This document shows, in pieces, positions 12,561 to 16,383 of a stretch of DNA of 64,000 nt; within the stretch, counting starts at the first letter, position 1; each line of letters starts with the position of its first letter. The DNA is from Spirochaetes bacterium GWE1_32_154 (GTDB taxonomy: Bacteria; Spirochaetota; GWE2-31-10), in the NCBI GenBank assembly GCA_001829315.1, contig MIAY01000011.1, positions 1-64,000 on the forward strand. The letters run 5' to 3'. Below the pieces are notes generated by a model. That model did no database searches. It saw nothing but the letters and a program-made list of their open reading frames with translations, and had not been told where the DNA came from. Position numbers and translations under genes: made by a program.

Positions 12561-13016
12561 ATGAAATGTCCCAATTGCGGATCAACAGATGATAGAGTTT
12601 TAGAGTCAAGGCAGATAGCAGAAGGCAGCTCAATTCGTAGAAGAAGGGTTTGTAATAGTTGTGAATACCGCTTCACTTCATATGAGCATATTGAAGAAAA
12701 AAAATTAATGATAGTGAAAAAAGATAATAGACGTGAAGAATTTTCTCGTGATAAACTATCAAGAGGGTTACAAAAAGCGTGCGAGAAAAGACCCGTTTCT
12801 CAACCGTCCATTGATCAGTCGGTAATAGAAATTCATGAAAAGGCTAATTTTATGGCAGGAGATACTCATGAAATAAACAGTATTAAACTTGGCGAAATTG
12901 TTATGGATAAACTGAAGGAGCTTGATCTTGTAGCTTACATCAGATTTGCAAGTGTTTATAAACAATTCGATGATGTAAAAGAATTTATAAAAGAAATAAA
13001 GAAAATAAATAAATAA
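12561..13016 (+). CDS. nrdR: NrdR, transcriptional repressor of ribonucleotide reductase genes
   Basis: 151 residues, the usual length. It has an N-terminal zinc ribbon (C3-P-N-C6 and C31-N-S-C34) with the R-R-R-R cluster between, followed by an ATP-cone domain from about residue 48 ('K-K-D-N-R-R-E-E-F-S-R-D-K-L'). NrdR senses ATP/dATP and represses nrd operons by binding paired 16-bp boxes. It is the first gene of an operon with nrdD, a radical/redoxin gene and nrdG, and the palindrome in its leader suggests autoregulation. The ribosome site is weak. Confidence 0.96.
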   Translation: MKCPNCGSTDDRVLESRQIAEGSSIRRRRVCNSCEYRFTSYEHIEEKKLMIVKKDNRREEFSRDKLSRGLQKACEKRPVSQPSIDQSVIEIHEKANFMAGDTHEINSIKLGEIVMDKLKELDLVAYIRFASVYKQFDDVKEFIKEIKKINK

Positions 13017-13050: not shown

Positions 13051-15144
13051 ATGAGTCGATGGCGAAAAGAGGTGCTTGGTGTAGAATCAGCAGGTGAAAA
13101 ATTTGTAATAAAACACATTATTAAAAGAGACGGTCAACTTGAAATGTACAGCAGAGAAAAGTTGTTTAGTGCAATAATGAATGCTGCATCGGCAATTGAT
13201 AACTCGGATGTTGATTTGGTTAACAGACTCACTGATAACACTGAAGTGAAAATAAAACAATTGATGCTGAAAAGACACCAGAATTCTGCACCGGCTATTG
13301 AAGAAATTCAGGATATGATAGAAGAAGTTTTAATTGAAGACAGACAGGTTGCTATTGCAAAGGCTTTTATTTTGTACCGGGCAAAACATCAGTCAATTCG
13401 TGATACTAAAGAATTATTTCTTGATATAAATGAAACAATGGAAGGCTACCTTGCTCAGACCGATTGGCGGGTCAATGAAAATGCAAATGTTAATTATTCA
13501 TTAGGTGGTTTAATACTTCATAATTCCGGAACAATTACCGCAAATTATTGGTTAAATAATATTTATCCTAAAGAAATTGGAGAAGCGCATATCAATGCTG
13601 ATTATCATATTCATGATTTATCAATGTTTTCCGGTTATTGCGCGGGTTGGTCATTGCGACAATTAACCGAAGAAGGATTGGGCGGTGTTGAAGGTAAAAT
13701 CAGTTCTAAACCATCCAAACATCTGTATACACTTATATTTCAAATGGTAAACTTTCTTGGTATAATGCAAAATGAATGGGCAGGGGCTCAGGCATTTTCA
13801 AGTTTTGATACGTATTTAGCACCATTTGTGAGAGCAGATGATTTAAATTATCTTGAAGTAAAACAGGCAGTTCAGAGTTTTGTTTTTGGTGTCAATATTC
13901 CTTCGCGATGGGGGAGTCAGGCACCTTTTACTAATATTACATTAGATTGGATCGTTCCGACAGATATGCGTGATAAACCTGCAATTGTTGGTGGTGAACA
14001 ATACAAAAATTATACGTATGGTGATTTTCAACATGAAATGAATATGATAAATAAAGCATTTCTTGAAATTATGCTCGATGGTGATGCAAATGGCCGTGGT
14101 TTTCAATATCCGATACCGACATATAATGTAACAAAAGATTTTGATTGGGATAGTGAAAATGCTAAATTGCTTTTTGAGATGACTGCAAAATATGGAACAC
14201 CTTATTTCCAGAATTTTATAAACAGTGATTTGGATCCGAGCGATGTTCGAAGTATGTGTTGCAGACTTCAGCTTGATAAACGTGAGCTAAGAAAGAAGGG
14301 CGGTGGTTTATTTGGTGCTGATGAGTTTACCGGGTCAATAGGTGTAGTAACAATAAATCTTCCGAGAATTGGTTATTTAACTAAAACGAAGGATGAGTTT
14401 TTCAAGCGATTAACACATTTTATGAATCTTGCAGCGAAATCACTTGTAATTAAAAGAAAAGTAATTAATCGACTAATGGAAAATGGCTTATTTCCATATA
14501 CAAAACGTTATTTAAAACATCTCAACAATCATTTTTCAACAATCGGTGTAAATGGGATGAATGAGTGTTTATTAAACTTTCTGGGTAAAGATATTGTTTC
14601 AGAAGAAGGTCGTAAATTTGCACTTGAAATACTTGATTTTATGCGAAAAAAACTTGCTGACTTACAGGAAGAAACCGATGATTTATTCAATCTCGAAGCA
14701 ACACCTGCTGAAAGTACCAGTTACAGACTTGCAAAACAGGATAAAAAGAATTTTCCTGATATTATAACATCAGGTAAAGAAGATCCGTTTTATACCAATT
14801 CATCACAACTTCCTGTTGATTATACCGATGATATTTTTGAGGCATTAGACCATCAGGATGAATTGCAGACACGATATACCGGTGGAACAGTTTTTCATGC
14901 GTTTATTGGTGAAGCAATTTCTGATTGGGAGTCATGCAAGAAAATGGTTAAAGCAATAGCGTATAATTATCGATTACCATATTTTACAATAAGTCCAACA
15001 TTTTCAATTTGTCCGAAACACGGATATTTAAAAGGTGAGCATTTTAATTGTTACAAATGTGAATTAGAAAAAAAAGAAGAGTTAAAATTAAAAATAAAAG
15101 AATTAAAGGCAAAGAAAGACAATTTCATTGCTTTAAATAAATAA
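13051..15144 (+). CDS. nrdD: Anaerobic (class III) ribonucleoside-triphosphate reductase, catalytic part; lacks glycyl-radical segment
   Basis: The start is ATG 13051 behind a G6-AG ribosome site, not the TTG at 13036 that lies in that site. 697 residues. N-terminal ATP-cone (about 10-105), then the ten-stranded catalytic barrel. Visible motifs are 'F-S-G-Y-C-A-G-W' (C197), 'R-S-M-C-C-R-L' (C403/C404, candidate thiyl-radical site) and 'N-G-M-N-E' (N501, E505). A zinc site follows: C654-P-K-H-G, C667-Y-K-C670. A conserved Asn/Glu pair is reported for thioredoxin-dependent class III enzymes, so E505 may place it in that subtype (inference). After C670 the protein runs only into a 27-residue charged coiled-coil-like tail and stops. 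The usual R-V-x-G-Y radical motif is absent and is found at the start of the next gene. Confidence 0.93.
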   Translation: MSRWRKEVLGVESAGEKFVIKHIIKRDGQLEMYSREKLFSAIMNAASAIDNSDVDLVNRLTDNTEVKIKQLMLKRHQNSAPAIEEIQDMIEEVLIEDRQVAIAKAFILYRAKHQSIRDTKELFLDINETMEGYLAQTDWRVNENANVNYSLGGLILHNSGTITANYWLNNIYPKEIGEAHINADYHIHDLSMFSGYCAGWSLRQLTEEGLGGVEGKISSKPSKHLYTLIFQMVNFLGIMQNEWAGAQAFSSFDTYLAPFVRADDLNYLEVKQAVQSFVFGVNIPSRWGSQAPFTNITLDWIVPTDMRDKPAIVGGEQYKNYTYGDFQHEMNMINKAFLEIMLDGDANGRGFQYPIPTYNVTKDFDWDSENAKLLFEMTAKYGTPYFQNFINSDLDPSDVRSMCCRLQLDKRELRKKGGGLFGADEFTGSIGVVTINLPRIGYLTKTKDEFFKRLTHFMNLAAKSLVIKRKVINRLMENGLFPYTKRYLKHLNNHFSTIGVNGMNECLLNFLGKDIVSEEGRKFALEILDFMRKKLADLQEETDDLFNLEATPAESTSYRLAKQDKKNFPDIITSGKEDPFYTNSSQLPVDYTDDIFEALDHQDELQTRYTGGTVFHAFIGEAISDWESCKKMVKAIAYNYRLPYFTISPTFSICPKHGYLKGEHFNCYKCELEKKEELKLKIKELKAKKDNFIALNK

Positions 15145-15146
15145 TT

Positions 15147-15155
15147 GGGGGGGGG
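15147..15155 (+). repeat. G9 homopolymer used as ribosome-binding site
   Basis: Nine Gs lie between the nrdD stop (15142-15144) and the ATG at 15158, where the Shine-Dalgarno should be. nrdD itself has a G6-AG site. Slippage here would change spacing to the start codon, not reading frame. Confidence 0.7.
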
Positions 15156-15157
15156 AT

Positions 15158-15685
15158 ATGGAAAGGTTTATTAATGAGATTGATGGGGAAATTGCTTCTT
15201 TGGAGGCACAGTTACTAACCGTAAAAGGAACGGATACTGAGGTTTACACACGAATTGTCGGGTATCACAGGGCTTTAAGTAACTGGAACAAAGGTAAAAG
15301 AGAAGAGTATAATCACCGGGTTTGTTTTGATGCTGATAAATGGTTATCAAATGAAATCGTTGATAAACATTCATCAAACATTGTAATGAGAAACGAAACT
15401 GATTTTTCATTTACCACATATGGTAATGTCTCAAAATATGTATTTTTCTATGGTGAATATTGCAGAAATTGTAAACCGGTTAAAGATTACATTGATCAAA
15501 TCGCAATTGAAGGTGAAAAAGTTGATGTTGGTTCTGACTTGGGACTCAATATTGCCCGACAGTATAATGTAACGACAACACCCACTGTAATAATGCTTGA
15601 TACAAACAATCAGGTAATCGCAAAATTACATTCAAAAGAAGAACTTATTTCATTCACAAATAAATTTGATGAAGCCATAGCGTAA
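15158..15685 (+). CDS. Separate glycyl-radical segment of NrdD fused to a thioredoxin-fold domain
   Basis: 175 residues. Residues 1-24 are helix-forming. Residues 28-57 carry the C-terminal signature of class III reductases: E-V-Y-T-R-I-V-G35-Y, then W-N-K-G-K-R-E-E-Y and R-V-C-F. G35 is the candidate glycyl radical residue. Residues 90-175 form a thioredoxin-like domain: strand 'K-Y-V-F-F-Y', redox motif C102-R-N-C105, and a cis-proline 'T-T-T-P-T-V-I-M-L'. The gene follows nrdD by 13 bases and overlaps nrdG in a TAATG. I infer that the product associates with NrdD, supplies the radical glycine activated by NrdG, and delivers electrons through its own CxxC. The nrdD stop lies before the G-run, so a single slip in that run cannot join the two frames. 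Confidence 0.85.
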   Translation: MERFINEIDGEIASLEAQLLTVKGTDTEVYTRIVGYHRALSNWNKGKREEYNHRVCFDADKWLSNEIVDKHSSNIVMRNETDFSFTTYGNVSKYVFFYGEYCRNCKPVKDYIDQIAIEGEKVDVGSDLGLNIARQYNVTTTPTVIMLDTNNQVIAKLHSKEELISFTNKFDEAIA

Positions 15686-16383
15686 TGAATTTTTATGGTT
15701 TTCACAAAACAACTCTTTTGGAATACCCAAAACATATTGCATCCATTTTATTTACACTCGGGTGCAATATGCGTTGTCCGTTCTGTCATAATGCTGAATT
15801 AGTAGAATCTTCCAAAAATGAACCGGTTATTAATGATGCCGGTTTTTTTCAGTTTCTTGAAAAACGAAAAGGCATCCTGGAGGCCGTTTGCATAAGTGGT
15901 GGTGAGCCGTTAATGTATGAAGCACATCTTATTGATTTTATCGATAAAGTAAAATCAAAAGGGTTAAAGGTTAAAATCGATACAAACGGTTCATTTCCTG
16001 ATGTGTTAAAAAAACTTGATGTAGATTATATAGCGTTGGATATTAAAACTTCTTTCGAAAATTATCATAAAATTGGTTATACCGGCGAAAATATTGTTGA
16101 TAAAATCAAGGAATCTCTTGATTATGTTATGAATATTTTTACTAACGAGTATGAATTGAGAACGACTGTTGTTCCCGGTATTGTTGATTTACATGATATT
16201 AAACAAATTGCACTACACATTCAAGGTGCAAAAAACTATGTTCTCAGTCAGTTCCGACCAATGAATACACTTGATAATGCGTTTGCATTTGTAAAACCAT
16301 ATCCAATAGAGTATATTGAAGAAATGAAATCTTTTTGTGTACAACAGGGCATTGTTACAGAAATTCGCGCAAATTATAACTGA
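15685..16383 (+). CDS. nrdG: Anaerobic ribonucleotide reductase activating enzyme (radical SAM)
   Basis: 232 residues. It opens with 'T-L-L-E-Y-P' and the radical SAM cluster motif C-N-M-R-C-P-F-C (CxxxCxxC), then 'S-G-G-E-P-L' for SAM binding and 'K-I-D-T-N-G'. It installs the glycyl radical on class III reductase using SAM and a 4Fe-4S cluster. The start codon overlaps the stop of the preceding radical/redoxin gene, implying translational coupling; its direct substrate here is probably G35 of that protein. Length and motifs resemble the NrdG/PflA-like subgroup annotated as anaerobic NTP reductase activators. Confidence 0.92.
   Translation: MNFYGFHKTTLLEYPKHIASILFTLGCNMRCPFCHNAELVESSKNEPVINDAGFFQFLEKRKGILEAVCISGGEPLMYEAHLIDFIDKVKSKGLKVKIDTNGSFPDVLKKLDVDYIALDIKTSFENYHKIGYTGENIVDKIKESLDYVMNIFTNEYELRTTVVPGIVDLHDIKQIALHIQGAKNYVLSQFRPMNTLDNAFAFVKPYPIEYIEEMKSFCVQQGIVTEIRANYN

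Follow-up and report, generated by a model that had tools for sequence, protein, structure and literature searches.

A class III ribonucleotide reductase very likely built from two subunits, with its radical glycine on a small thioredoxin-fold protein

In a spirochaete genome we found a class III ribonucleotide reductase (RNR) that is very likely a working two-subunit enzyme, in which the NrdD chain ends before its glycyl-radical segment and the radical glycine resides on a separate small protein. No biochemistry stands behind this assignment, and both the glycyl radical and the reduction of NTPs are inferred. The DNA analysed, hereafter the window, is a stretch of 64,000 nt from Spirochaetes bacterium GWE1_32_154 (Bacteria; Spirochaetota; GWE2-31-10 in GTDB), taken from contig MIAY01000011.1 of assembly GCA_001829315.1, positions 1 to 64,000 of the forward strand. 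The class III enzymes described in PMC9669993 and PMC11226230 carry their radical domain in cis. A first, sequence-only reading of the window had proposed two subunits with the radical glycine on a separate small thioredoxin-fold protein, which is now strongly supported by conservation, by genomes in which only the split enzyme was detected and by a structure model.

The genes are arranged head to tail on the forward strand in the order nrdR, nrdD, the gene for a 175-aa product and nrdG2. The first of them (12561..13016) encodes the repressor of RNR genes and scores 183.6 bits with NCBIfam TIGR00244 against a cut-off of 124.65. The nrdD core follows at 13051..15144, and the small radical subunit is encoded at 15158..15685 in a reading frame differing from that of nrdD. 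Its ATG is preceded by a run of nine G, forming a G-rich ribosome-binding site at 15147..15155, and its TAA stop has one A, at 15685, in common with the ATG of nrdG2 (15685..16383). The latter encodes the radical-SAM activase partner (TIGR02495, 164.1 bits against a cut-off of 131.15). No oxygen-related regulation was seen among the neighbouring genes of this locus. Elsewhere the genome encodes an adenosylcobalamin-dependent class II RNR (G000:C25:40255-42246; TIGR02505, 379 bits), and NrdD is therefore not its sole RNR. A genome search also detected a pyruvate formate-lyase (PFL) family enzyme, so that formate production is possible.

The nrdD frame runs from the ATG at 13051 to a TAA stop at 15142-15144 and yields a product of 697 aa, which matches PRK08270 with 1095 bits. 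Pfam detects an ATP-cone at residues 21-114 and the class III barrel as positions 1-531 of the 562 in NRDD (PF13597, E 2.7e-180). The finger loop S401-M402-C403-C404-R (14251..14265), an MCCR motif as described for class III RNR in PMC9669993, holds the expected thiyl-radical and reducing cysteines; a barrel with finger-loop cysteines is further supported by Foldseek matches with E about 1e-33 for the NrdD of a relative (L117). The zinc site C654-x2-H657 ... C667-x2-C670 (15010..15060), with CPKHG at residue 654 and C667/C670 downstream, precedes the radical loop and has all four residues on NrdD, its ligands being assigned by sequence only. Its C-x2-H opening is found in 135 of 135 adjacent split pairs. 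The chain ends 27 residues past C670, and the R-V-x-G-Y motif is absent from the 697 aa inspected, exactly as the sequence-only reading had stated, residue for residue. The radical glycine is not part of this chain: positions 532-562 of NRDD lie on the product of the next gene.

There they correspond to residues 26-57 (E 3.5e-7; 15233..15328), the profile passing from the first product (1-531) to the second (532-562) with no position missing. The NCBIfam NrdD models split at the same point. This NrdD-type segment contains R32-I-V-G35-Y and W43-N-K-G-K, and T27, E28, Y30, R32, I33, V34, G35, Y36, R38, W43, N44, G46 and K47 are invariant across 19 aligned proteins. It is followed by a thioredoxin-fold domain with C102-R-N-C105 (15440..15634), recognised by its CxxC, a PHROG thioredoxin match (E 6.7e-10), a structure model and Foldseek, for which the best matches of the C-terminal domain are thioredoxins; both C102 and C105 are invariant in 30 aligned proteins of this form. 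The small protein matches NrdD and thioredoxin models only and fails as a PFL-type glycyl-radical domain. The claims that the next gene carries the NrdD C-terminus and a thioredoxin-fold domain and overlaps nrdG by shared codons all held.

To see how widespread the split is, we sampled 120 Spirochaetota genomes around the window. NRDD matches were found in 60, and nrdD was split in 48 of these by our own count. Four (G012, G015, G027, G031) encode an enzyme of this kind as an ordinary single chain, in three others (G024, G035, G045) a long linker connects the two parts within one chain, and the remaining NRDD-bearing genomes have other or partial NrdD types only. When GTDB representatives were scanned with the small protein, the best 80 loci came from Spirochaetota and Margulisbacteria and were split without exception (80/80), the small protein never being continuous with NrdD. 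Among the split loci are those of Treponema porcinum and T. socranskii.

A sequencing error, a pseudogene, or a programmed frameshift or readthrough giving one chain would be the most trivial explanations for these observations. In their favour, the two genes are close and a small frame change would join them, and 47 of 135 distinct adjacent pairs are already in the same frame. Against them, the relative frames in these pairs are random (51/47/37), the nrdD stop codons vary (TAA 97, TGA 23, TAG 15), and the small genes have their own ATG with an SD-like signal before it in 134 of the 135 pairs, a slightly generous figure as the best ATG was chosen by script. The median gap between the two genes is 49 bases and the break is identical in all 135 pairs. 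In two single-contig genomes, moreover, the radical gene adjoins nrdG and is unlinked from nrdD, at a distance of ~527 kb (G025) and 97 kb (G036). As far as sequence can tell, a one-chain product is all but excluded; the split is genuine, each gene being independently translated by all signs. Of the two outcomes that would have refuted the sequence-only reading, neither was encountered: the comparisons gave no sign of an error restoring one frame from C670 to G35, and relatives are not always one continuous protein, the same segments being separate in them. A continuous frame of ~900 aa spanning both parts had seemed present in some relatives; these candidates were rejected, as a stop and a new ATG are present there.

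The radical subunit comes as form A, the window type with helix, radical segment and thioredoxin domain, or as form B, which consists of the radical domain alone (about 45-75 aa) and is in most cases encoded between nrdD and nrdG. Form A minus the redoxin occurs in two genomes. At L104 and L105 (G025, G036), where the redoxin was lost from the radical subunit, a short C-D-C-P-P-I is found at the place of the CxxC. On a tree of 101 NrdD cores, calculated with a quick method and showing some long branches, the split is clustered: split and intact states are separated by 8 changes vs about 50 with shuffled four-state labels. Form A falls into a clade of Spirochaetota and Margulisbacteria inside which some one-chain enzymes of phages are nested; the one-chain phage NrdDs of viral contigs L203, L212 and L268 are nested in the spirochaete redoxin-split clade. 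The long-linker one-chain enzymes fall inside form B, and these NrdDs (L081, L086 and L089 of G024, G045 and G035) are likely to be re-fusions inside a split clade.

A match to a class I or II large subunit was absent in 9 of 40 split genomes, the class II absence being upheld by a second model. Three of these nine (G086, G110, G115) have another NrdD, and no RNR besides the split enzyme was detected in six (G005, G007, G017, G029, G080, G091), among which G005, G007 and G080 have the redoxin type. With completeness values of 93-99%, absence from these six genomes is not proof. They nevertheless bear on a second rival, by which the small protein would be a redox carrier or radical quencher, the NrdD tail only a docking tag, and no catalytic radical would be involved. 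The complete thioredoxin domain with its invariant CxxC speaks for this rival. However, NrdD is left without any other radical site while no other RNR was found in some genomes, the radical domain is kept without a redoxin in other lineages and the residues around G35 are invariant, which makes a mere redox carrier very unlikely.

For a structural view of the two-subunit enzyme we modelled the relative L117, whose NrdD is 75% identical and whose two genes share one frame, with the single TAA between them read as a residue. AlphaFold returned a mean pLDDT of 85.9 and a pTM of 0.73 for the joined chain, and Foldseek matches for its NrdD include 8p23, 4u3e and 1h79. Two consecutive helices with pLDDT about 94-96 are formed by residues 677-703, at the end of NrdD, and 709-731, where the small protein begins. 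We read them as a predicted antiparallel pair, the geometry of which is not established with tethered chains. Their equivalents in the window are the charged C-terminal helix of NrdD, residues 671-697 (15061..15141), as proposed docking helix, and the N-terminal helix of the small protein, residues 1-24 (15158..15229), as its proposed partner. The radical segment reaches pLDDT 77-87 in the joined model. When the window's small protein was modelled alone, a helix was obtained at 2-21 and residues 26-37 stayed below 50. A radical loop predicted to be ordered with NrdD and disordered alone is consistent with folding of this loop only inside the barrel of NrdD. Tethering favours docking, however, and the alignment included eight one-chain enzymes. 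Whether G35 reaches C403/C404, as the first reading asked, is addressed only by the ordered loop of this tethered prediction, from which no distance between G35 and the cysteines is available.

In the mechanism we propose, NrdD would supply the ATP-cone, barrel, finger-loop cysteines and zinc site, and the 175-aa subunit the radical glycine G35 and the thioredoxin domain. Both are predicted to join via the helix pair of NrdD 671-697 and small protein 1-24, with the R-I-V-G-Y loop reaching into the barrel in the manner of one-chain enzymes. NrdG would install the radical on G35 in the complex, the radical would move to a finger-loop cysteine, C403 or C404, and the tethered thioredoxin may re-reduce the NrdD active site or a nearby disulfide. 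As the radical part is a separate protein and inexpensive to make, a copy cleaved by oxygen could be exchanged for a fresh one while the NrdD chain is retained. The redoxin as reductant, already suggested by the first reading, remains an inference that we only slightly favour. The role would be optional, since many split lineages have no redoxin, and the domain is dispensable, as a radical domain of 45-75 aa stands alone in many lineages with the split. The MCCR finger loop is compatible with formate or thioredoxin as reductant; the hallmark of the thioredoxin-dependent subtype, a double cysteine without a preceding Met, is not fulfilled.

The split enzyme resembles one-chain NrdD from T4, Thermotoga maritima and Prevotella copri in its barrel, finger-loop cysteines, zinc site, R-V-x-G-Y-type motif and NrdG, and some of those enzymes in its ATP-cone, but differs by the radical glycine on a second polypeptide, the added helix pair and the thioredoxin fusion. 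With the Neisseria bacilliformis type of thioredoxin-using class III RNR it shares the double finger-loop cysteine and a thioredoxin-type partner, whereas its motif is MCCR instead of SCCR and its redoxin is fused to the radical subunit. Phage nrdD genes in pieces were attributed to intron, intein or fragmentation events, including homing endonucleases (PMC3653736); in contrast, the break described here is a single fixed one at a domain boundary, has no intron or intein and is conserved across phyla. Closest in kind are YfiD/GrcA and T4 Y06I, small separate glycyl-radical domain proteins that complete a glycyl-radical enzyme (PMC8683613). Unlike them, the part described here is NrdD-type instead of PFL-type, serves an RNR, carries a redoxin and is obligatory, because the split NrdD never has a radical segment of its own. 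Spare parts have been described for PFL only, and the authors of PMC8683613 regarded spares for other glycyl-radical enzymes as possible and unproven; to our knowledge, no validated glycyl-radical spares exist besides YfiD and T4 Y06I, both for PFL. In the literature searched, from which most subscription papers and bioRxiv were excluded, we found no account of an NrdD broken at a fixed point at its radical domain, whether or not a redoxin is attached; the first reading's statement that the arrangement is undescribed stands within that scope. With whole lineages and loose viral copies, the split provides a sequence-level case of a separate radical domain for the essential enzyme RNR, and the small proteins make the question of replaceable RNR radical parts testable.

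Oxygen destroys glycyl-radical enzymes at the radical glycine. A radical part damaged in this way might be exchanged, as the sequence-only reading had suggested from YfiD and PFL, but this remains an inference for which we see the odds as balanced. It draws indirect support from phage copies and an oxidative-stress locus, and the YfiD-like replacement is by analogy a claim about how the small protein may work, no more. The competing view is a permanent heterodimer, an obligate bound subunit split off by chance gene fission without any repair role. For it speak the adjacency and probable co-expression of the genes in most genomes, the confidently predicted helix pair and lineage f18 (G024, G035, G045) with its long-linker single chain inside the split clade, because of which separation is not always needed. 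Against it, ten of the sampled genomes and many viral contigs hold additional, unlinked copies, and genomes whose NrdD is intact have free-standing radical domains next to oxidative-stress genes; we judge the heterodimer slightly the less probable side of the question. Exchange after oxygen damage is inferred to be the best account of the loose copies, while no result tests exchange itself.

The ten sampled genomes carry one or two such extra radical domains away from nrdD. Several copies are surrounded by phage-like genes, and L109 reads the same as viral contig L327. A MoaA-like radical-SAM gene adjoins a loose radical domain at L090:1417-2340 (G017) and L102:2227-3198 (G029). It was considered as a replacement activase and rejected, NrdG2 being encoded elsewhere in both genomes.

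The NrdD radical domain was detected in over a hundred short ORFs of IMG/VR, some contigs being counted twice; the loose viral domains (loci L197-L355) are NrdD-type and 45-70 aa long. Searching 50 viral contigs whole, which may be fragments, revealed only a loose domain in 45, a split NrdD in four and an intact NrdD in one. The radical domain at L245:4004-4141 belongs to a DNA replication and recombination module: genes for a Sak4-like annealing protein and a single-strand-binding protein flank it, and those for a RusA resolvase and a helicase lie close by. The "nrdD" of the ANMV-1 archaeal virus (L356:3686-4120, KP703175.1), annotated as anaerobic ribonucleoside triphosphate reductase, encodes a 144-aa product comprising the radical domain only. 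The case published for an RNR in this virus should be re-examined, and other short proteins annotated nrdD may likewise be radical domains instead of reductases.

A bolder reading, as likely to fail as to hold, sees the radical tail of class III RNR as a mobile, exchangeable part across bacteria and viruses. Spirochaetes and Margulisbacteria would have it as an obligatory separate protein, and another bacterial group would keep it next to intact enzymes as a spare linked to stress. In many phages, and in at least one virus of archaea, the tail would serve to complete, repair or retune the host enzyme while viral DNA is being made.

The putative spare is a free-standing 98-aa gene ending in an NrdD-type radical domain, found in a Margulisbacteria group mostly in genomes with tandem intact NrdDs (loci L359-L370; genomes G180, G184, G187, G195, G197, G200, G204, G206, G208, G210, G213, G217). 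Its radical domain shows 55-81% identity to NrdD tails over about 30 residues. An Rrf2 regulator is a frequent neighbour of this gene; at some loci the neighbours include desulfoferrodoxin, rubrerythrin-like, hybrid-cluster, ferredoxin or Fur genes. No PFL was found in the three genomes with this gene that were searched, and the 98-aa proteins are therefore unlikely to be YfiD. By analogy they could possibly represent a YfiD-like spare for RNR, which we infer from sequence and gene context only. In one Margulisbacteria group, tandem and nearly adjacent intact nrdD genes were also observed downstream of nrdR (L379-L386).
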